A stretch of 64,000 nucleotides of DNA from positions 16,323 to 80,322 of IMG/VR virus record IMGVR_UViG_3300028859_000017. One strand, written 5' to 3'. Position 1 is the first letter of the stretch; every line of letters starts with the position of its first letter. The stretch comes from a virus. Positions 2,706 through 35,460 of this stretch are shown piece by piece. Under the pieces are notes generated by a model. That model saw only the letters and a program-made list of their open reading frames with translations, was not told where the DNA came from and did not search any database. The position numbers were made by a program, and so were the translations under genes.

Positions 2706-3527
2706 TTAATTGACTTTTTCTATTGTAAAACCATTAGTCTTATAACCCAACTTAGCTGCTCTTGAAATATTAGTTATATTATACTGTTTAGAAATCTCAT
2801 TTAATCCAATAACATATTCTACAATTCCATCTGGGTGTATGATTTTCCACTGTTTCTTATTTAATTCTCCAACTAAATGTCTTGATTTTATTATGTTTTC
2901 CTTCTTTTGTTTTATTAAATATTCTCTGTTTTCAATAGCTTTTTGATTTAATTTAGTATCTTCAAATTTACAAGTCCATCCCCAATAAGTTTCAGAAGGA
3001 CTTTTTCCTGCAGCTAGTGAGTAAAGGGCATGTCTTATTACAACCTCATTTACTCTATTACTATTATTATCATATATCTCAAAATATCTTAAAACTTTTG
3101 TTCTAGTTACTACACCTTCTGGAGATGTCACTATATACCAATATTTAGAGTATGCTTCTGCTTTCTTTTTTTTATATTCTTCACTTCTTTTAATACCTGT
3201 ATTATTATATGCTGTTGGACTGATATTATATCCAATACTACTATCATAAGTTTTATAATAATCTAAATAATATTGTTCTCTAACTTCTAAATTAGAAGTT
3301 AATTCTAATATACCAAAAGTAAAAGAAGATTCTCCATCTATATTATAAGCACTTTGTAAATGTCTTGAATGATGCTTATTAGCTCTCAATAATCTTCTAT
3401 GTTTTCCAAAACGAAGTTTAAAATTATTAGCACTTCCAATATATTTTTTATTGTTTTTTATATTAGTTATTACATAAATACCAGAGTAAGTATTAACTTT
3501 CTTAGAACTCTCTGTTAAACTAATCAT
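2706..3527 (-). CDS. GIY-YIG homing endonuclease
   Basis: A 273-aa free-standing homing endonuclease. The GIY-YIG nuclease domain occupies residues about 14-80, with GIY at 16-18, YIG at 29-31, the conserved Arg near 39 and the catalytic Glu in the GILEL segment near 75. The C-terminal half has two related modules (SPEGVVTRT... and HPDGIVEYV...), each followed by a helix-turn-helix-like stretch, like the NUMOD/IENR1 DNA-binding repeats of this family. It sits between two virion genes and just after a terminator hairpin, so it looks like an insertion into the tail operon. ATG 3527 has AGGAA upstream. Family assignment is secure; the target site is unknown. Confidence 0.93.
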   Translation of the reverse strand: MISLTESSKKVNTYSGIYVITNIKNNKKYIGSANNFKLRFGKHRRLLRANKHHSRHLQSAYNIDGESSFTFGILELTSNLEVREQYYLDYYKTYDSSIGYNISPTAYNNTGIKRSEEYKKKKAEAYSKYWYIVTSPEGVVTRTKVLRYFEIYDNNSNRVNEVVIRHALYSLAAGKSPSETYWGWTCKFEDTKLNQKAIENREYLIKQKKENIIKSRHLVGELNKKQWKIIHPDGIVEYVIGLNEISKQYNITNISRAAKLGYKTNGFTIEKVN

Positions 3528-16832: not shown

Positions 16833-17339
16833 CTACATATATTTAATTATAATGCTATCTAATTGGCTATATAGATTCTCAAATGATGAATTATTATCTA
16901 CTATATAATCATAATCAGTAAAGAAATCTAACTCTAATTCTGAAGAGTGGTTCATATTGGTTGCTCCCCTACTAATTCTTACATCCTCATTAGCTACTAT
17001 TCTAATAACAATAAAACCTTCCTCTTTTAATTTAATAAGTTCATTGAGATATCTAGAGTCTGTGATAAATATAGAATTTGTATTACATTTCATTTTATCT
17101 ATTAATTTAGATACCCAAATATCAGATTGCTGTTGTCTAGCCCAATCACCTAAAAATTGTAAAAACACTCTATTTTTTTCTTGTTTAAATCCTAAATTAT
17201 CTTGAACCATATGTAAAATATCGTATATGGGCTCAGCAAATGAGAACAATTCGGCATTTTTAATATAATTATGTTTAATATAAGTAGCAGAAACATCCTT
17301 ACCGCTCCTCATATTTCCAGCAAAGGCTATTTTTATCAT
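16833..17339 (-). CDS. Deoxynucleoside monophosphate kinase
   Basis: 168 aa. The P-loop GNMRSGKD is at residues 8-15, followed by FSFAEPIYDILHMV, a GDWARQQQSDIWV segment and an ITDSRYLNE segment. This layout is that of phage dNMP kinases (T4 gp1 type), which phosphorylate dNMPs for phage DNA synthesis. The protein is shorter than T4 gp1 (241 aa) but looks complete. The ATG at 17339 overlaps the stop of the upstream zinc-array nuclease gene (ATGA), so its translation is now coupled to that selfish gene. Confidence 0.82.
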   Translation of the reverse strand: MIKIAFAGNMRSGKDVSATYIKHNYIKNAELFSFAEPIYDILHMVQDNLGFKQEKNRVFLQFLGDWARQQQSDIWVSKLIDKMKCNTNSIFITDSRYLNELIKLKEEGFIVIRIVANEDVRISRGATNMNHSSELELDFFTDYDYIVDNNSSFENLYSQLDSIIIKYM

Positions 17340-18568
17340 ACTGTAATCTCCTCGATATATTGTTCTAAGTTCTTTTCTTCTGTGTATGGAATAATTATTA
17401 GTTTTATATTATTTTCCTTAGCATATTGAACTTTCTCTATATCACGTTGCCTAGCTTTTAAATATTGTTCTTCTGTTTTATGAAAGTAATTTGGATAGAT
17501 ATAATGCTGATAACCATGATATTCAAAGGCTATTTTATGGTCTTCATTATAGCCATCCCATTCATATCTTTTACTATCGTACAAAAACCTTGTTTTAGTC
17601 AGAGTAAAACCAAACTTAGATTCTAATAATTCCTTACATCTAAGTTCTGTCTTAAAGGAAGCACATTCAGGACACCAAGTATTACTATTTTTAATATGGC
17701 CCCAATTAGCTTCCCATTGATGTGTTTCTTTACATTCCCATAATAATTTATTACTATTATCTATATAAGTTGTGGATAACAATTTTCCTTTTTTACTCTT
17801 AGCAAAATTTTGTAGCTCTATAATATCAGGTTTAGCCTTCCTAGCACAAATAGCACACCAGCTATTACTATTTTTAATACTGCCCCAATTGGCTTTCCAC
17901 TCATGTCCTTTTTCACATTTCCATAACATCTTAGTAATATTATTTATATACTCAGTAGAGACTAACTTGCCACCTTTATTTATGGCATATTCTTGTAATT
18001 CAGTTATATTAGGTTTAAGTGAGGAGCACCCAGGACACCAACTTTTTTTATTTTTAATATCTGTCCATTTAGCTTCCCATTGATGCCCTTCCTCACATTC
18101 CCATAACATCTTAGTAATATTATTTATATACTCAGTAGAGACTAACTTGCCACCTTTATTTATGGCATATTCTTGTAATTCAGTTATATTAGGTTTAACA
18201 CTACCTGAACAGTAGGGACACCAACTTTTTTTATTTTTAATATCTGTCCATTTAGCTTCCCATTGATGCCCTTCCTCACATTCCCATAACATTTTAGTCT
18301 TACTATTTATATATTTAATAGATACTAACTTGCCACTTCTGCTTCTAGCAAATTTTTGTAATTCAGTTATATTACATTTTTTAACCTTCCAAGCACAGTA
18401 AGGACACCAACTTCCTTGACGAACACTATTCCAGTTAGCTTCCCATTGATGCTTTTCTTTACATTCCCATGACATTTTTGTGAGAGCATTTATATACTCA
18501 GTAGATATTAACTTACCATCTTTATTAAGGGCAAATTCTTGACATACTTCTAAGTTACACTTTTTCAT
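17336..18568 (-). CDS. Zinc-ribbon-array homing-type nuclease (family A, copy 1)
   Basis: 410 aa. Five tandem units of about 60 residues each follow the pattern ELQ-x-FA ... GKL-STEYIN ... TKMLWEC-x-GHQWEA-W ... WCPYC. The Cys/His positions suggest one zinc ribbon per unit, presumably for DNA binding. The C-terminal about 100 residues form a nuclease-like domain (FKTELRCKELLE, RYEWDGYN, FEYHGYQHY, RDIEKVQYA, LIIIPY). The Asp of WDGYN, the Glu of FEYHG and the following Gln-His suggest a PD-(D/E)XK/Vsr-like fold. Two more full copies and a remnant occur in this window. Unit-to-unit DNA identity is very high (see the repeat at 17921-18197). Homing function is inferred. Confidence 0.75.
   Translation of the reverse strand: MKKCNLEVCQEFALNKDGKLISTEYINALTKMSWECKEKHQWEANWNSVRQGSWCPYCAWKVKKCNITELQKFARSRSGKLVSIKYINSKTKMLWECEEGHQWEAKWTDIKNKKSWCPYCSGSVKPNITELQEYAINKGGKLVSTEYINNITKMLWECEEGHQWEAKWTDIKNKKSWCPGCSSLKPNITELQEYAINKGGKLVSTEYINNITKMLWKCEKGHEWKANWGSIKNSNSWCAICARKAKPDIIELQNFAKSKKGKLLSTTYIDNSNKLLWECKETHQWEANWGHIKNSNTWCPECASFKTELRCKELLESKFGFTLTKTRFLYDSKRYEWDGYNEDHKIAFEYHGYQHYIYPNYFHKTEEQYLKARQRDIEKVQYAKENNIKLIIIPYTEEKNLEQYIEEITV
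17921..18197 (-). repeat. 97-base direct repeats inside the zinc-array nuclease gene
   Basis: Positions 17921-18017 and 18101-18197 read as identical over 97 bases, exactly 180 bases apart (60 codons, one zinc-ribbon unit). A further stretch starting at 18033 is repeated from 18216, 183 bases away. This indicates recent tandem duplication of whole zinc units. Confidence 0.85.
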
Positions 18569-18583
18569 ATCACAATATTCCTA

Positions 18584-19747
18584 TTAGATATACTTAACAT
18601 AAACCAGCTTTCCGCAGTCAAAGACGCGGAATTGAAAAAGCACATCTCTTGTATAATCGAGCTCAGTTTGTGTTGGAAGAATACCATGAAGATTACATTT
18701 TTTATTTGATTGCTTTCCTCTAACAATACATTTGCCTTCCTTAGCCGATTCCACAGAACACCAATAAGAATAATCGGATTGTAAAGTAGCATATAATTCA
18801 AAGTTTAAAACATTATAAAGATTACCTTGACTTATTCTTCTATCTGCCCAAGAGACAACGGTGTTATATCCTTTAGACTTTAAATCTTTTTCAGCAAAGG
18901 CCAAAACCTTACTTGAGCCACCTGGAATATTATAATTTGATTTTATAGCCAATCTATCTAATACAGTTGTGGTAGGCGAATTCCAGATACTTTGCGCACG
19001 GTGATGTCTTCCAAATGATACAACTTCAATTAAGACATTATTTACATCATATAGCCCATAAAAAAGATAAGATAAATTAGCAGGCCCTTGAATATGCTCT
19101 TCTTTTAAAAACTCATTTGCTTCTTGTTTAGTTATTGCTTTTACTGTACATTTTCTGGCAAATACTGTAATTTTATTTTGTTTAAGTGCTGAAGATAAGA
19201 AGTTAATCATCTTACTTCTTTTGGACTCCCATTCGTTTTCAAACACTGTAAGAACACGATTTCCGTCATTAACAAGTTCCTCCATATTTGAAATAATTAC
19301 TTTCTTAGCCTCAGCATAAGTTTTACACTTTCCTGATGATACTAGAATTTCTTGATGAAACTTACTTAGCTCAACAAAGGTAATAGCAAGCTTACTATTT
19401 TCTTCAAGTAAGGCTGATAATCCAAACTTCATATTTTTGAGAGTAAATGTTAGATTTGGATATAGTTTAATAATATCACTATAAAAAGTATCAGTAGCTG
19501 TTACTGGTATTACTGGAGCCACTTGAACTATTGCTGATTTGTTAAAGGTTTTTCTAATAACATCCCTATAGCAGCCACATGAAGTAGTATTTCCAGAAAC
19601 TAATGAGCCTGTAGCAACTTCTGTAGTTTTTCCACACTCACAAAGACATTCCCATATAGCTTTACGTTGATATCTCTTATCAGAAAGCTTAACAACAGTT
19701 AGCTTTCCATAAACATTACCAAGAAGAGATTTTGGTTTTCCAGACAT
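18584..19747 (-). CDS. Hef-like homing endonuclease with N-terminal CxCxCG zinc unit
   Basis: 387 aa. Residues about 8-60 form one zinc unit of family B (YGKLTVV ... WECLCECG ... SGNTTSCGC). Residues about 165-370 match the C-terminal half of Hef-type phage homing endonucleases: VLTVFENEW, FARKCTVKAI, EANEFLKEEHIQG, a GLYDVNNVLIEVVSFGRHHR strand pair, GGSSKVLAFAE, VSWADRRISQGNLYNVLNF. Where relatives, as I remember them, carry a catalytic Glu in an LAIEYNG segment, this protein reads LAITFVE, so cleavage activity is doubtful. It lies in a run of three selfish genes between the capsid gene and the dNMP kinase. Confidence 0.72.
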   Translation of the reverse strand: MSGKPKSLLGNVYGKLTVVKLSDKRYQRKAIWECLCECGKTTEVATGSLVSGNTTSCGCYRDVIRKTFNKSAIVQVAPVIPVTATDTFYSDIIKLYPNLTFTLKNMKFGLSALLEENSKLAITFVELSKFHQEILVSSGKCKTYAEAKKVIISNMEELVNDGNRVLTVFENEWESKRSKMINFLSSALKQNKITVFARKCTVKAITKQEANEFLKEEHIQGPANLSYLFYGLYDVNNVLIEVVSFGRHHRAQSIWNSPTTTVLDRLAIKSNYNIPGGSSKVLAFAEKDLKSKGYNTVVSWADRRISQGNLYNVLNFELYATLQSDYSYWCSVESAKEGKCIVRGKQSNKKCNLHGILPTQTELDYTRDVLFQFRVFDCGKLVYVKYI

Positions 19748-27419: not shown

Positions 27420-28517
27420 TTAATTCCTTGATTTTACTTGCTCTAATAACTTTTCTGCCAATTCTTCATCATAGAGTTTTGATACTCCTTTATGAGTTTT
27501 ATATAAGTGACATGTTCTACACACTATTATTAGATTGTCCAAGTCCTTTATTTTTTCTGGAGCCACACTTTTGGGAATTATATGGTGACATTCTAACCTA
27601 TTAGCTGTTGTATCCTGACAACCACATAATTGACATTTATAATTATCTCTCTCAAGTACTTGTGGCTTTAAAACTCTTGACACATACCAGGCTATGCTTA
27701 TATTATTTTTATAATTAATATCTATCTTACATCTACTTGTAGTATATTCAGTGGCTTTTTGTATAATTTCCTTTTTATGCTCTTTATAATACTTAGAATA
27801 CCATACTTTATGTTGCTTTATTATGGCTTCTTTATGTTCTTCGTTATAAGTTTTTTGATACTCTTTTATTCTTTCTAAATTATTTAATTTATATATTTTA
27901 TTGGCTAAGCTTACTTTTTCTTTATTTATTTCTACATAAACTTTCTTTTTTAACTGTAATTCCTTTATATGAGTTTTATAATATACTCTAGTATACTCTT
28001 TTATTTGTTCTGAATGAGCTAACCTATATATTTTTTTCTTCTGTAAAATAATAGACCTATTATCATTACGATATTTCCTATTATAAACTTGTCTACATTC
28101 ATTACAATAGTGATATAATCCATTCTTTACTGCTTTATCTTCAGCAAAATAGGTTTTATTTTTTTCTACTCCACAGATAGAGCATTTTTGAACCTCAGTA
28201 ACTACAGCATCTACTCTTAGTTTGTTTTGTTTTTGATACAAAGATACCTTAGTTTTATTACATTCCTTACAAATTACACTATATCCATCTTTTTTATATT
28301 TATCCTTGGCAAATTCTTTTACATTTTTTTCTATATTACATTTAGTACATTGCTTAACTGTAATTTCCTTATTTACAATACTACAGCCATAAGTTTTAGA
28401 GTATTCTTTTACACACACCTTACACCAAATCTGTAAGCTATCTTTTGTTTTGGAATGCCTACCAAAAAAACTAGTATCCTTCTCAATACCACATTTTGAA
28501 CATGTTTTTACTGGCAT
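27420..28517 (-). CDS. HNH homing endonuclease with three CxxC zinc modules and a charged repeat linker
   Basis: 365 aa from ATG 28517, chosen over an upstream TTG because GAGGT lies seven bases before it. The N-terminal third has three C-x2-C ... C-x2-C modules (CSKCGIEKD, CTKCNIEKN, CSICGVEKN), each about 45 residues. The middle third is a Lys/Tyr/Glu-rich helical linker of repeated YKxHxKEI-like units. The C-terminus is an HNH nuclease: CQLCGCQDTTANRLECHHIIP, then NLIIVCRTCHLYKTH. It is inserted between terminase large subunit and portal and has its own CGATA element about 20 bases upstream. Confidence 0.88.
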   Translation of the reverse strand: MPVKTCSKCGIEKDTSFFGRHSKTKDSLQIWCKVCVKEYSKTYGCSIVNKEITVKQCTKCNIEKNVKEFAKDKYKKDGYSVICKECNKTKVSLYQKQNKLRVDAVVTEVQKCSICGVEKNKTYFAEDKAVKNGLYHYCNECRQVYNRKYRNDNRSIILQKKKIYRLAHSEQIKEYTRVYYKTHIKELQLKKKVYVEINKEKVSLANKIYKLNNLERIKEYQKTYNEEHKEAIIKQHKVWYSKYYKEHKKEIIQKATEYTTSRCKIDINYKNNISIAWYVSRVLKPQVLERDNYKCQLCGCQDTTANRLECHHIIPKSVAPEKIKDLDNLIIVCRTCHLYKTHKGVSKLYDEELAEKLLEQVKSRN

Positions 28518-28536
28518 ATCACATACCTCTACATAC

Positions 28537-28548
28537 AATATCGGTAAA
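28537..28548 (-). promoter_or_regulatory. CGATA element (TTTACCGATATT)
   Basis: Exact minus-strand match to TTTRYCGATAHT, ending about 20 bases before the HNH gene start, with GAGGT in between. It provides the inserted gene with a promoter-like signal independent of the terminase operon. Confidence 0.62.
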
Positions 28549-28565
28549 TCCTATTCATACTGTAG

Positions 28566-30545
28566 CTATCTATTACGATTACTGAAGAAATTATTATGCA
28601 TTTCTGTGAGGGCTCTAAATTCCTCACTAAATATGTCATCTACTGAAAACTTTCTAGCTGTTGGAATAAGTGATATACTCTCTGCTAAACTATAACTATT
28701 ATCAAGTATTAAGCCTCCCATATTACCTATGAGGTCCTCTGCTGCTCTTTCACGTTCCCATTGCTCTACAGGATGTTGAAGGTCTAAATCCTCTACTCCA
28801 GTACCATCATATTCACCAGATTTTATTTTGTGATATAATATAAGTCTACTCTCCAACATATCCTTAGATATACCCATCTTATTAGAATGATACTCTAAAT
28901 ACTCATCACTATATCTGCCATTCATAAGAGAAGAACTAGCATCATATATTACATTAGAGTCTTCTTGAGGTCTATGAATATGTTCTTTTGGTGTTAGAGA
29001 AACAACAGCTAATGATAGAGCCAATACAGCATCATCATTACCGTGCTTAGCTTCCATTTTTCTAGAGCCATCAGAATATATGGCACCAGCTGTAAAATTC
29101 TGCATTTGTAATTGTAATCTAGAACTATGTAAATTAGAGGCATTGGCTGTATTATTATAAAATAATAATAACTTTTCTATAAGTAAAGACCTAGTTGCTC
29201 TATTAGTCTGAAATCCTGGAGTTCCTTTAATTGGATCATACCATATATTATTATATCTTTTTTGTTCTAATAAATAAAATACCATTTCTGAATAAGAGTT
29301 AGCTTCTATAACTAATATAGCATTATTGTAGTGTCTACCAGCACGTATTAGAATATCTACAAATACTTCAGTTGGTAATTTTCCAATATATTCAGCACAT
29401 TGTTCATAAGTATCTTGGTCGATAACTTGGAAACTAGTATAATCCTTTGCTGTAGGTTTATTAGAGGCACAATCTACCCCTATTATATATTTTCTATTTT
29501 GTTCTGCTTTTTTCCATACAAGAAAAGTATCCTCATAAGTAGCTCCACCATATATTTGATTTAATATAGGCACATTATAATTTATAGCTGCTAATGCTTT
29601 TACATCAAATAATGAAAATAAATTTACCTGGAAAGCACAAAGATACTCTTGTTTAAACTTCTCTTCATTACCATTATCAAGTCTAATCTGGTCCTGTCTA
29701 AAGTTAGGATTCTTTGTAAATATAGATGAAACTGTCCAAGGTAATTCAAATAACTTCCAATTAGTCTCTCCAGGTTTATTTAAAGTTTTATTTGCTTGAG
29801 CAGTTGATACAGTTCTATAAAACCAATTTTCTGGTGAATTACCATTAGGAGTACTAATAGCAATAAGTTTACCATCAGAAGCAGCCACAGTAGGACCAAT
29901 AGCTTTCACAACTTCATCACAATCCTTGACGAAAGCTGCTTCATCAAGTAATACAAGAGTGGCAGAGAACGAACGAGCAGCATTGGCATTTGAAGTAATG
30001 GCTTTTATTCTGGATTTAGTATCAAATTCTACTTCACTTTTACTATATAAAGTACAAGAAGGCTTTAGCCACTCAGGGAGAAACTCGTAAGCTGTTTTAA
30101 GCTTTACAATAAACTCTTCTGCTGATTCTCTTCTATGGGCAACAATTAAACATCTTTTACCAGTTGAAAATATAGAAAACCAAAGAGCATAAAACATTAG
30201 AGATGTAGAAACACCTAACTGTCTTGCCTTTACAGTAATGACATATTTTTCATCAACAAAGGCTCTTAATAAAGTTCTCTGATATGGCTCCAAAACCATA
30301 GGGATTATGCCAGCCCCACCCGGACCGGTTATAAATCCATAAGTATTAGCAAAATATTCAATACTTTCAATACATTTCTTACGTTCTGTCTCAATATATT
30401 CTATTAAACAAGCCTTAATCTCATCTTCATTCTTGCCTTCAACTCTCCAATGCTTTATAAGTCTCTGTGGCTCATAGGAAATATGATGCTTGTCTTCAAC
30501 TTCATGCTGATATTTCTTTGCTAAAACTTTTTTACCTGATGCCAT
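28566..30545 (-). CDS. Terminase large subunit, gp17-like
   Basis: 659 aa, similar to T4 gp17 (610). The ATPase domain has Walker A KARQLGVST at 106-114 and Walker B LVLLDE at 197-202, followed by the coupling motif region AISTPNG. The nuclease domain has GVDCASNKPTAKDYTSF with the first catalytic Asp and a second acidic site in HGNDDAVLALSLA. The enzyme cuts and translocates DNA into the prohead through the portal. The start (ATG 30545) is one base from the stop of the inserted zinc-array nuclease, which also supplies its ribosome site. Confidence 0.95.
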   Translation of the reverse strand: MASGKKVLAKKYQHEVEDKHHISYEPQRLIKHWRVEGKNEDEIKACLIEYIETERKKCIESIEYFANTYGFITGPGGAGIIPMVLEPYQRTLLRAFVDEKYVITVKARQLGVSTSLMFYALWFSIFSTGKRCLIVAHRRESAEEFIVKLKTAYEFLPEWLKPSCTLYSKSEVEFDTKSRIKAITSNANAARSFSATLVLLDEAAFVKDCDEVVKAIGPTVAASDGKLIAISTPNGNSPENWFYRTVSTAQANKTLNKPGETNWKLFELPWTVSSIFTKNPNFRQDQIRLDNGNEEKFKQEYLCAFQVNLFSLFDVKALAAINYNVPILNQIYGGATYEDTFLVWKKAEQNRKYIIGVDCASNKPTAKDYTSFQVIDQDTYEQCAEYIGKLPTEVFVDILIRAGRHYNNAILVIEANSYSEMVFYLLEQKRYNNIWYDPIKGTPGFQTNRATRSLLIEKLLLFYNNTANASNLHSSRLQLQMQNFTAGAIYSDGSRKMEAKHGNDDAVLALSLAVVSLTPKEHIHRPQEDSNVIYDASSSLMNGRYSDEYLEYHSNKMGISKDMLESRLILYHKIKSGEYDGTGVEDLDLQHPVEQWERERAAEDLIGNMGGLILDNSYSLAESISLIPTARKFSVDDIFSEEFRALTEMHNNFFSNRNR

Positions 30546-30546
30546 A

Positions 30547-31440
30547 TTATCTACCTATTATATCACTTATATCACTTATATAACTCTCTAAATTTTTCTC
30601 TTCTGTATAGGGTATTATGATTAGTTTTATATTATTCTCTTTGGCATATATCACTTTATCCATATCACGTTGTTTAGCTTTTAAATGCTGTTCTTCTGTT
30701 TTTTGAAAAAAATTTGGAAATATATAGTGCTGATAACCATGATACTCAAATGCTATTTTATGTTCTTCATTATAACCATCCCATTGATATCTATGTTTAT
30801 TATATTTAAAATTAGTCTTTATAAATTTAATATTTAGTTTTTGTTCTAATAACTCTTTACATTTATACTCTGTCTTAAAAGAGGCACATTCAGGACACCA
30901 TTGCCTTTGATCCTTTATAGCATGCCATATAGCATGCCATATAGCATGCCATTGATGACCCTCTTTACATTCCCATAGCATTTTAGTATTATTGTTTATA
31001 TAAACAGAGTCTAAACATTTTCCATTTCTTGATTTAGCATAATTACAGCACTCAGAAATATCGGATTTAACATTCCCGCAGCAATATGGGCACCAAGTAT
31101 TATCTGAGTTAACTACATGCCAACAAGAAAACCATGAGTGACCACTACTACATTCCCACTCCATCTTAGCTTTATTATTGGTGTAGTTAGTTGACTTCAG
31201 TTTTCCTCCTCTAGCTATAGCATAGGCTTGTAAAATCTCTATTGAAGTCCTAACACAACTATTACAAGTAGGACACCAAGTATTATGAAAGCTTACCTCA
31301 CTCCAGTTAGCCTTCCACTGATGACCCTTCTCACATTCCCATAACATCTTTGTTCTATTATTTATATAAACAATATCCAAGCATTTACCATTCTTAGATT
31401 TAGCATGCTCTTGACATACCTCTATAGTTCCTCTTCTCAC
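30547..31440 (-). CDS. Zinc-ribbon-array homing-type nuclease (family A, copy 2)
   Basis: 297 aa from a GTG start at 31440; AGGAG lies five bases upstream, inside the end of the terminase small subunit gene. Three zinc-ribbon units (WECEKGHQWKANW..WCPTC, WECSSGHSWFSCW..WCPYC, WECKEGHQWHAIW..WCPEC) precede the same C-terminal nuclease domain as copies 1 and 3 (FKTEYKCKELLE, RYQWDGYN, FEYHGYQHY, RDMDKVIYA, LIIIPY). The third unit is expanded by a triplicated HAIW. It sits precisely between small and large terminase genes with no visible damage to either. Confidence 0.75.
   Translation of the reverse strand: MRRGTIEVCQEHAKSKNGKCLDIVYINNRTKMLWECEKGHQWKANWSEVSFHNTWCPTCNSCVRTSIEILQAYAIARGGKLKSTNYTNNKAKMEWECSSGHSWFSCWHVVNSDNTWCPYCCGNVKSDISECCNYAKSRNGKCLDSVYINNNTKMLWECKEGHQWHAIWHAIWHAIKDQRQWCPECASFKTEYKCKELLEQKLNIKFIKTNFKYNKHRYQWDGYNEEHKIAFEYHGYQHYIFPNFFQKTEEQHLKAKQRDMDKVIYAKENNIKLIIIPYTEEKNLESYISDISDIIGR
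30917..30952 (-). repeat. Three perfect 12-base tandem repeats
   Basis: The plus-strand unit ATAGCATGCCAT occurs three times in a row, encoding the HAIW HAIW HAI expansion in the third zinc unit of the nuclease gene. Other copies of the unit have a single WEANW-type segment here, so this is a local slippage expansion that keeps the frame. Confidence 0.85.
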
Positions 31441-31442
31441 TA

Positions 31443-31973
31443 CTACTCCTCTGATAGCAAATCAGTTATTGACGATTCCTTTAATGTATTTTTAGTATTT
31501 AAATGCTCTGTTTCAAAATCTAAAGAATCTTCAGCATCTATATCAATAGTTGTAAAAGGTAAAGTCTGTTGATGTGATTTTTTTTCATTTATAGATTTTT
31601 GTGTAGACACTGTAGCCCCTAAAGCCGCTCCCAAACCAATACCAGAGAGTATAGAATCAATATCGGTACCCTGAGACTTTTTCTTAGTACTAACATCAAT
31701 ACTTTTATCACTAACCAGAGTCTTAAGAATGTCATTACGTTTCTTAAAGGTATCCATTCTAATTTCATAGAATCTAGCTAAAGCTATTGCTAAAACAGCA
31801 TCAGTAGATTGTACCACCCTATCTTGGAGAATTTCGACAATAGCATCTAAGTCTGATGAAACTATTTCTAACTCACTAAGTTGTTTAGCTACTTCATCAT
31901 CTACTATGTTATTAGTTTTATCTATTCTTGACTCAGTTTTATTCTTCTTTATTTGTGGAGTAGTATCTGACAT
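31443..31973 (-). CDS. Probable terminase small subunit, gp16-like
   Basis: 176 aa, close to T4 gp16 (164). The central region (about 28-95) is helical and heptad-like (EVAKQLSELEIVSSDLDAIVEIL, ALARFYEIRMDTFKKRNDIL), consistent with the oligomerising helices of small terminases. The C-terminus is polar. It precedes the large subunit gene, separated only by the inserted nuclease. Assignment rests on size, helical content and position. Confidence 0.6.
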   Translation of the reverse strand: MSDTTPQIKKNKTESRIDKTNNIVDDEVAKQLSELEIVSSDLDAIVEILQDRVVQSTDAVLAIALARFYEIRMDTFKKRNDILKTLVSDKSIDVSTKKKSQGTDIDSILSGIGLGAALGATVSTQKSINEKKSHQQTLPFTTIDIDAEDSLDFETEHLNTKNTLKESSITDLLSEE

Positions 31974-31974
31974 C

Positions 31975-33291
31975 TTATAACTTTCTAAAAATTGTAATCA
32001 TTCTAAATCTATGATTAGTAGACTTACACATTCCTATTACAGCCTCTAAACTAAATTCATCCTTTCTATACATTGGAAGAACTTGGTCTAACCATACAAC
32101 ATAAGTTCCAGATACTAGCCCTCTTCCTAAGGCCTTCATTACTTTATTTCGTTTAATCATAGTAGTTTGATAGTGGTCACAATCCTCAACTGAATATGGA
32201 GGGTCTGCTAATACTAAATCAAAAGTAGCTAATGGAACATTAAGTAGTGATTGAGCATCGTCTACATAATCAGGATTATTAGCTGGATTTATATCTACAG
32301 TCTTACCAGGAAATATAACTGTATCAACTTTACCAGAAAACAAATGAAGAACATTCAATTTATCAGGAAAAAGTGCCTTAATACGTTTTAAATAGCCAGC
32401 TGGGTATGAATTATGAGAAGCCAAACCATAGGCTACAAAAGTTTTTGACTCTGTATTCATACCAATAAATTCATGGTCGGAATTAGTTGGAGTTATACAT
32501 TTAATTTTAATAACTCCATTTTTTATTGGTAATTTCGAATTTATCCAGCCATTTAACATTCTAATTGGCCTAGTAATTCCAAGAAGCATTAATGAATCTG
32601 AAAAATTGTTAGTTCTTGTTTCACATTGAACTTTGCCAGTTTTTCTGTGCCTCTCTTTAGAAACAAATGGAACTTTAAGCAATGTCAAAATATCTATTAT
32701 TTTACTTTGTACTAATCCTGGATTCTGTGTTATATTAATACGAAGCCCCGCGCCGGAATCTAAATTGCCTTCTCCATCAATAATTCCACCTAACCAACCA
32801 GCATCATTACTGTTGTCTACATTATCCCATTGATTACATACCGCTCTAATTAAATCTCCATTTTTAAGCTCATCTGCCCTTCTCCATGTAGTTCTATTTT
32901 TTGGTTTACTATTCCCATTAACTAGCCAAAGATGACTATTACTACAGATAAAATTCCTCCCGTCTTCTAATTCAATTTTTATTCCCGGTAAAGTTACTGG
33001 TCCCACATCAATTACCTTTGTTGGGTATACTGCTCTTTTATTTAAATTAATAATAGTTTCGTCAAATCCAACAAGCATATCACCCGCTTTGACTTTGGAC
33101 ATAGGAATCCATCGTAAATCAGCAGTAAGCACTGGAGCATCTGGTGCCAAACAGCCATAATAATCTTTTCTTGCTTGATAGTTATTGCCCATAATCCAAG
33201 TCCCTACAACCCTATCATCCTCTCCTATAAATAAAGACTTAGGAAATCCTGTCTCTTTTACATAATTTTCTATTCTTTCTTCCCAGTTCAT
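31975..33291 (-). CDS. DPPY-motif DNA methyltransferase-like protein interrupted by an intein
   Basis: The frame encodes 438 aa: a 46-aa N-extein, a 248-aa intein (residues 47-294) and a 144-aa C-extein. After splicing the host protein would be 190 aa. It has LNVLHLFSGKVD (SAM-binding motif I-like), DDAQSLLNVPLATFDLVLADPPY with DPPY at 363-366 of the precursor, and TYVVWLDQVLPMY. This fits a small adenine- or N4-cytosine-type DNA methyltransferase. The exact base modified is unknown. It lies between the sigma-factor and terminase genes in one operon; start ATG 33291. Confidence 0.75.
   Translation of the reverse strand: MNWEERIENYVKETGFPKSLFIGEDDRVVGTWIMGNNYQARKDYYGCLAPDAPVLTADLRWIPMSKVKAGDMLVGFDETIINLNKRAVYPTKVIDVGPVTLPGIKIELEDGRNFICSNSHLWLVNGNSKPKNRTTWRRADELKNGDLIRAVCNQWDNVDNSNDAGWLGGIIDGEGNLDSGAGLRINITQNPGLVQSKIIDILTLLKVPFVSKERHRKTGKVQCETRTNNFSDSLMLLGITRPIRMLNGWINSKLPIKNGVIKIKCITPTNSDHEFIGMNTESKTFVAYGLASHNSYPAGYLKRIKALFPDKLNVLHLFSGKVDTVIFPGKTVDINPANNPDYVDDAQSLLNVPLATFDLVLADPPYSVEDCDHYQTTMIKRNKVMKALGRGLVSGTYVVWLDQVLPMYRKDEFSLEAVIGMCKSTNHRFRMITIFRKL
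32410..33153 (-). other. Intein with a single LAGLIDADG motif
   Basis: It begins with Cys47 (CLAPDAPVLTAD, block A), has block B with a conserved His at 120 (FICSNSH), and one LAGLIDADG-type motif, WLGGIIDGEG, at 166-175. It ends with VAYGLASHN followed by Ser, giving the penultimate His, terminal Asn and Ser+1 needed for splicing. At 248 aa it is longer than mini-inteins but shorter than usual two-motif endonuclease inteins. A locally GC-rich stretch near 32745-32765 differs from the AT-rich surroundings, suggesting foreign origin. Confidence 0.88.
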
Positions 33292-34398: not shown

Positions 34399-35460
34399 TT
34401 ATATAGTTATATTCTCTATTTGCTTATTAATATATTCCTCTAAATTATTATTTTCAGTATATGGAATAATTATTAATTTTATATTATTTTCATTAGCATA
34501 TATCACTTTATCCATATCTCTTTGAACTGCTTTTTCATGTATCTCTAAAGTTCTATGCCAATGATTAGGATAAATATAATGCTGAATTCCTTGATACTCA
34601 AAGGCTGCTTTATGTTCCTCATTATAGCCATCAAATTCATATCTATTACCCTTGTAAATAAAACGTGTCTTCTTAAATTTATAACCTAATTTTTGCTCTA
34701 AAAGTTCTTTACATTTATATTCTGTTTTAAAAGAAGAACATTCAGGGCACCAACTATGGTTATTTTTAATATTATCCCAAATAGCTTCCCACTGATGACC
34801 TTTTTCACACCCCCATACCATTTTTGTATTACTATTTATATATTTAGTGGATATTAATTTACCTTGTTTGCTAGAGGCAAATTGCTGTAACTCAATAATG
34901 CTACATTTTCGTAATTCAGCACAGCACTCTGGACACCAACTTTTGGAATTTTTAATGTGATCCCAACGAGCTTCCCATTGATGACCCTCTGAACACTCCC
35001 ATAATAATTTAGTATTATTATTTATATATTTAATAGATAATAGTCTTCCATTTTTATTTTCAGCATGTTTTTGTAACTCCTTTATATCACAAAGGGTGCT
35101 AGAACATGCTGGACACCACTGACCAGCATTTTTAATATTATTCCAACAAGCTTCCCATTGATGCCCCTCTGAACACTCCCATAATAATTTAGTATTATTA
35201 TTTATATATTTAGTGGATATTAATTTACCTTGTTTGCTAGAGGCATATTCCTGTAATTCAATTATATTAGGTTTAGCTTTTCCAGCACAATAAGGACACC
35301 AACTACCACTATTAATACTATTCCAATGAGCTTCCCATTGATGCCCATCTTTACATTGCCACAATAATTTATGCTTACTATCAACATATTCTGTAGATAA
35401 TAATAAGCCACCTTTAGCAGCAGCAAAGGCCTGTAAGGTAGCTACATCATATTTTTTCAT
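34399..35460 (-). CDS. Zinc-ribbon-array homing-type nuclease (family A, copy 3)
   Basis: 353 aa. Four zinc-ribbon units (WQCKDGHQWEAHW..WCPYC, WECSEGHQWEACW..WCPAC, WECSEGHQWEARW..WCPEC, WGCEKGHQWEAIW..WCPEC) precede the family C-terminal domain (FKTEYKCKELLE, RYEFDGYN, FEYQGIQHY, RDMDKVIYA, LIIIPY). The ATG at 35460 directly abuts the UvsX stop, so it is translated as a coupled rider on the recombinase message. The number of zinc units differs between copies (5, 3, 4), suggesting that binding length or specificity changes by unit gain and loss. Confidence 0.75.
   Translation of the reverse strand: MKKYDVATLQAFAAAKGGLLLSTEYVDSKHKLLWQCKDGHQWEAHWNSINSGSWCPYCAGKAKPNIIELQEYASSKQGKLISTKYINNNTKLLWECSEGHQWEACWNNIKNAGQWCPACSSTLCDIKELQKHAENKNGRLLSIKYINNNTKLLWECSEGHQWEARWDHIKNSKSWCPECCAELRKCSIIELQQFASSKQGKLISTKYINSNTKMVWGCEKGHQWEAIWDNIKNNHSWCPECSSFKTEYKCKELLEQKLGYKFKKTRFIYKGNRYEFDGYNEEHKAAFEYQGIQHYIYPNHWHRTLEIHEKAVQRDMDKVIYANENNIKLIIIPYTENNNLEEYINKQIENITI

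Follow-up and report, generated by a model that had tools for sequence, protein, structure and literature searches.

We consider it quite probable that the DNA methyltransferase-like gene described here, located in a 64,000-nucleotide stretch of a viral record (IMG/VR IMGVR_UViG_3300028859_000017; hereafter the window), is interrupted by a mobile class-1-type intein carrying one complete LAGLIDADG half-domain, which belongs to a large family of single-motif inteins and would home as an I-CreI-like homodimer, rather than by a two-motif intein in decay. What is new is the single-motif architecture as a class, together with a near-isogenic record of homing, rather than the intein itself. Coordinates of all features are given in Table 1.

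Table 1. Features of the invaded methyltransferase gene (positions in the window; residues numbered within the intein; a slash after YG marks the insertion point)
Feature	Position	Strand	Basis or remark
Precursor ORF: N-extein, intein and C-extein	31975..33291	(-)	438 aa
N-extein, last residues ...QARKDYYG	33154..33291	(-)	46 aa; aligned with empty homologues
C-extein, first residues Ser(+1)-Tyr-Pro; SAM motif I LHLFSG and ADPPYS	31975..32409	(-)	homologue alignment
Intein, Cys1 ... His247-Asn248	32410..33153	(-)	248 aa; exact ends from near-isogenic empty alleles L002/L003
N-terminal splicing (Hint) region, residues 1-112; Cys1/Gly24/His74 (block B)	32818..33153	(-)	conservation, AlphaFold2 model, Foldseek to inteins
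Single LAGLIDADG half-domain, residues 113-202, alpha-beta-beta-alpha-beta-beta-alpha	32548..32817	(-)	leave-one-out profile, 70.1 bits; AlphaFold2 secondary structure
LAGLIDADG motif LGGIIDGEG, residues 121-129; Asp126 and catalytic-position Glu128	32767..32793	(-)	conservation
C-terminal splicing region (blocks F/G), residues 214-248, SHN end	32410..32514	(-)	conservation
Downstream half of invaded motif YG/(G/S)YPxGYLKR	32383..32409	(-)	most conserved stretch of N-terminal part
5′ co-conversion tract	33154..33181	(-)	28 bp: 12 mismatches to L003, 13 to L002
3′ co-conversion tract	32401..32409	(-)	9 bp: 5 mismatches, including the +1 codon GGC (Gly) to TCA (Ser)

Judging by its sequence, the extein is a phage SAM-dependent methyltransferase of the DPPY type. 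When spliced it measures 190 aa, and its residues 11–189 match PHROG 3816 ("DNA methyltransferase"; profile positions 16–202/203) with an E of 9e-47, whereas the unspliced precursor gives a poorer value (1e-40). Both the LHLFSG (SAM) motif and ADPPYS are conserved among homologues. The top fold matches of the extein are the tRNA N-methyltransferases TrmN and Trm11, so that DNA is a putative substrate. A tblastn search of 50,697 phage records, with the spliced extein as query, gave no match at E ≤ 0.01.

The in-frame insert comprises precursor residues 47–294; it opens with Cys directly after residue 46 and ends in HN/S (the slash marking the splice junction). NCBIfam rSAM_Rv_intein, which models an intein-containing mycobacterial radical-SAM protein, covers precursor residues 47–296 and with them the whole insert (E 1.6e-8), and Pfam Intein_splicing covers insert residues 20–248 (E 8e-5, below Pfam's curated cut-off). 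The AlphaFold2 (AF2) model, built with 66 aligned sequences as input, reaches a pLDDT of 94.6 and a pTM of 0.90, and Foldseek matches its Hint fold to solved inteins with E values down to 1.5e-9. Sequence and model together provide Cys1, block B His74, HN/S, a Hint fold and intein-free alleles at the exact site, and we therefore regard the insert as a class-1-type intein, its splicing being predicted from the complete set of residues. A sequence-only reading of this DNA had already placed an intein of 248 aa at 32410–33153 in a methyltransferase-like gene, with all splicing residues present and the insertion after residue 46, before the SAM motif; the ORF, Intein_splicing, rSAM_Rv_intein and PHROG 3816 agree with it, as does the alignment of empty homologues on the position. 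Its remark that local GC content differs from the surroundings does not hold: the values are 34.1% (intein), 32.8% (extein) and 32.5% (whole window), a negligible difference. An assembly error was rejected, as the invaded locus recurs in another contig (L008/L024) with 100% identity over 6.2 kb.

The segment that interrupts the Hint domain, residues 116–194, is modelled as one alpha-beta-beta-alpha-beta-beta-alpha LAGLIDADG half-domain (helix 116–128, strands 129–132 and 138–143, helix 147–158, strands 163–169 and 175–181, helix 184–194). The presence of this conserved 90-residue half-domain excludes a mini-intein, i.e., one with no endonuclease domain. The lone LAGLIDADG-type motif reads WLGGIIDGEG at residues 120–129, in line with the single motif seen by the sequence-only reading, which had also proposed a structure-based search for a second, degenerate one. 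A half-domain profile from which the window sequence was left out detects a single copy in the window intein, and the same profile detects two copies (12.8 and 41.5 bits) in the positive control, a 345-aa two-motif relative named L115. Because both halves of this control are detected, a second degenerate copy in the window intein should have shown; a two-motif intein with a hidden second half was consequently rejected, the leave-one-out profile and the AF2 model both giving one half only. The control itself (L115:305-1339) is a relative of the splicing domain from an actinobacterial bin, in whose first half Ala replaces the Asp of the motif, and it is possibly a link between one- and two-motif inteins.

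Compared with the PDB, the half-domain profile matches I-MsoI best and I-CreI weakly, and also finds I-AniI and PI-PfuI. I-MsoI and I-CreI are homodimers. The conserved Gln (Q143) aligns with a Gln of I-MsoI in the profile alignment. Among nucleases with two halves, the profile favours the second one, both in PI-PfuI (20.8 vs 12.1 bits) and in I-AniI (21.1 vs 8.8 bits), and likewise in the nuclease of PDB entry 2dch.

A scan of viral contigs recovered 22 loci encoding the extein. Uninterrupted reading through the site was observed in 21, and the 22nd (L008/L024) is the identical phage with its intein; empty-site homologues, which the sequence-only reading had called for as a check, thus exist. 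Methyltransferases in which this segment is a regular domain, which it had named as refuting an intein, were not found among these loci. Two degenerate-pattern scans of the viral contigs for other invaded methyltransferases, possible donors, gave only the identical phage. The empty alleles read Y-G-G-Y-P-(A/H)-G-Y-L-K in the 18 loci compared as DNA, and the two most divergent empty homologues have Ala where the others have the second Gly, so the residue at +1 in every empty allele seen is Gly (or Ala). Residues Y45, G46, Y48, P49, Y52, L53 and R55 are invariant in 12 aligned empty homologues. On this alignment, the intein splits an invariant YG.YP.GYL.R motif, the most invariant of the N-terminal region. 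Inteins usually sit at conserved sites of this kind, so it is not the unusual target it had been taken for.

Two of the empty alleles, L002 and L003, come from phages almost identical to that of the window: over 8–11 kb, the majority of 250-bp blocks agree at 99–100%. When the window is compared with L003, 17 of the 22 mismatches fall in 37 of 1455 bp (P about 2e-23 under even scatter) and five in the remaining ~1.4 kb compared; outside the tract there are zero differences for 126 bp upstream and 756 bp downstream. L002 displays the same footprint and an extra patch of seven mismatches at +51 to +78. At either edge of the tract the outermost difference is synonymous (AAT/AAC; CCT/CCA), a pattern that favours copying of the tract over selection on splicing context. 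Relatives out to 63% identity share the empty flank consensus V-x-(S/T)-x-(Y/F/L)-Y-G-G, and since the window flank A-R-K-D-Y-Y-G-S alone departs from it, the invaded allele is the derived one. Splicing requires Ser, Thr or Cys at +1. As the +1 Gly to Ser change lies within the tract, the conversion would have carried the residue that the intein needs. The flanks fit a recent homing event in which co-conversion supplied the splicing nucleophile, and the near-isogenic pair, with and without the intein, looks like a natural record of one such event at base resolution. That inteins import the needed +1 residue by conversion was speculated before (PMC11855218), and a Gly to Ser change within a 37-bp tract bears on that speculation. 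A point against this reading is that donor and recipient flanks would have differed at 46% of tract positions, and a nuclease homing between them would have to be tolerant.

We hypothesize the following sequence of events. The precursor would splice via Cys1, the block-B His, Asn248 and Ser+1, restoring the methyltransferase; two copies of the excised intein would then join by their LAGLIDADG helices, giving a homodimeric endonuclease like I-CreI; the dimer would cut the empty allele within the conserved YG.YP.GYL.R codons; and repair from the invaded allele would copy the intein along with a few tens of bp of flank, including the Ser codon, whose import would be needed since the +1 residue is Gly (or Ala) in all empty alleles seen. 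Single-domain LAGLIDADG enzymes such as I-CreI and I-ShaI are known to pair for a double-strand break (PMC11270868). Each intein would contribute one half-site reader and one active site, and a double-strand break would thus require pairing with a second intein. A homodimeric nuclease similar to I-CreI and I-MsoI is the likeliest homing mechanism, with dimer formation and cutting as predictions. A shared pseudo-palindrome was sought at 66 reconstructed sites: the highest even-centre value (half-widths 6 and 8) lies at −2, but it is weak and codon-phase effects are of similar size.

The sequence-only reading had offered two alternatives for the single motif: a dimeric endonuclease, which we favour as a prediction, and an intermediate in loss of the nuclease, which we do not. 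In the latter case, half of a two-motif nuclease would have been lost, with the rest inactive and the intein inherited vertically. The retained half is indeed closer to the second (C-terminal) half of two-motif nucleases, as the scores within L115 indicate, and the second halves of PI-PfuI and I-AniI likewise score higher, which leaves room for the loss of a first half when the family arose. However, the half-domain is complete and confidently folded in the AF2 model, catalytic residues are conserved across the 66 same-size inteins listed, and the flank footprint suggests that the window intein moved recently; we judge degeneration to be very unlikely. An equally slim chance is given to the idea that the intein nuclease is inactive and that the insert was carried along by a cut from the free-standing nuclease genes found ~1–2 kb off (30547-31440 and 34399-35460). 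Literature cited in PMC10643990 describes how inactive elements hitch-hike on nucleases next to them, and the neighbouring gene at 34399-35460 and nearby patches also vary between near-identical phages. Nevertheless, the divergent tract is just 37 bp long and tight around the intein, and the DNA toward the downstream nuclease gene equals L003 for 756 bp, although a cut by the neighbour would be expected to convert the whole interval.

The direction of the change deserves similar consideration, because one pair of states alone gives none: the ancestor might have been invaded, and L002 and L003 might have lost the insert by recombination with an ordinary empty allele. Since deeper relatives are all empty and share the flank consensus of L002 and L003, with QARKDYYG/S the odd one out, gain is more parsimonious and we find loss unlikely. 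The notion that the insert is an ordinary, non-splicing methyltransferase domain can practically be set aside, given that, once spliced, the protein can be aligned over its full length to PHROG 3816 and to the 21 homologues lacking the insert, and that a full set of splicing residues is in place.

As a single-sequence query, the window intein matched only itself in the viral contigs, and a five-sequence profile, made from the window intein and four phage inteins, was needed to reveal its family: at least 80 viral loci and 12 cellular-genome loci. Among the matches listed there are 66 full-length single-motif inteins (the window and 65 others) of 237–289 aa. All have one DGEG-type motif, located near residue 114–149, and an Asn end followed by C, S or T. 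Seven positions are invariant in all 66 listed (C1, G24, H74, D126, Q143, G243 and N248), and E128 is kept in 65/66, P196 in 60/66 and H247 in 50/66. Conservation of the motif is partly by construction, the search seeds and patterns having included it; this does not apply to Q143, which lay outside the search pattern, to P196 or to the lack of a second half. Host genes among the matches listed include several terminase families, portal, DNA polymerase, UvsX/RecA, nucleotide phosphatase and D12 methyltransferase. Cultured phages are represented by the terminase-like and portal inteins of C1 mycobacteriophages and by a Gordonia portal intein; the mycobacteriophage members are already catalogued as inteins in PMC5050341.

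The family is large and apparently little-remarked, and the literature searched, whose coverage is incomplete, yielded no account of one-motif or homodimeric LAGLIDADG inteins as a class. On balance, we lean towards seeing single-motif LAGLIDADG inteins as a large, coherent and so far unnamed phage class, whose mobility needs the pairing of two whole inteins, which either retains the C-terminal half of former two-motif inteins or represents the half-size state whose duplication gave rise to such nucleases, and which is able to bring its own +1 nucleophile into sites otherwise unable to splice. From a widespread one-half class it follows that homing needs a dimer of the excised intein; this links splicing to dimer formation and to the symmetry of the target, all of which can be tested in one 248-residue protein. 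Small homodimeric intein nucleases could also serve as compact DNA-cutting scaffolds.

The surroundings of the gene offer further observations. The phage is rich in homing-type nucleases: GIY-YIG and HNH nuclease genes, 2706-3527 (-) and 27420-28538 (-), lie between structural genes. Window positions 34399-35460 (-), with counterparts at L002:2466-3890 and L003:426-1490, encode a treble-clef-repeat (DUF4379/CapR) protein with a nuclease-like C-terminus, which has four units in the window and six in L002 (366 nt longer, i.e., two 183-nt units) in nearly identical surroundings; phages this similar that differ in their number of putative DNA-reading modules could be retargeting fast. Two more treble-clef-repeat paralogues, 17336-18568 (-) and 30547-31440 (-), are placed between phage genes like free-standing homing nucleases. 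Beside the latter, at about 31463-31644, there are 23 mismatches to both L002 and L003 in otherwise identical DNA, a patch that looks like another short conversion tract. A possible DNA-modification gene, 18584-19747 (-), has a Mom-family domain (PF25680, E 1.4e-9) after a cysteine-rich N-terminus. The terminase, 28566-30545 (-), has its nearest counterparts in Flavobacterium phage immuto and Microcystis phage Mel-JY01, and at about 30% identity it places this phage far from cultured ones.

Regarding known systems, the closest are the C1 mycobacteriophage terminase-like (Pham3880) and portal (PORT) inteins (PMC5050341) and the Gordonia portal intein, full-length homologues of 254–275 aa with 25–36% identity. 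They have one DGEG motif in the same place as the window intein, but they reside in other host genes, at other sites and in distant phages. In the portions of Kelley et al. 2016 consulted (PMC5050341), a four-block, two-motif layout is given for the tested TerL1 inteins, with no mention of a one-motif class. I-CreI and I-MsoI share with the window intein one motif per chain and the same half-domain fold, and the conserved Gln aligned to that of I-MsoI; unlike it, they are free-standing proteins of group I introns. The window half-domain sits inside a splicing domain, and dimerisation must for this reason join two whole inteins. PI-PfuI, PI-SceI, TliVMA and PhoVMA, the top Foldseek and HMM matches, combine Hint and LAGLIDADG domains in cis as the window intein does, but they have two halves and about 360–460 residues in the solved structures. 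The intein nucleases of solved structure among the search matches all have two LAGLIDADG halves, and in Foldseek no solved intein could be superimposed over the full model (TMq at most 0.49; nearest TliVMA, PhoVMA and PI-PfuI).

Phage methylase genes have been seen to host LAGLIDADG inteins before, namely an actinophage methylase intein (PMC9957025) and the DNMT-1/2 inteins (PMC5050341); the actinophage methylase Atcoo in the structure library matches weakly (TMq 0.41). The haloarchaeal MCM-d intein (PMC10643990) parallels the footprint described here, since its empty alleles have a non-nucleophile at +1, its invaded alleles have Ser, and flank co-conversion was inferred. In that case, however, the Pro to Ser change was deduced from phylogeny, whereas the Gly to Ser change in the window is visible in a near-isogenic pair at base resolution.
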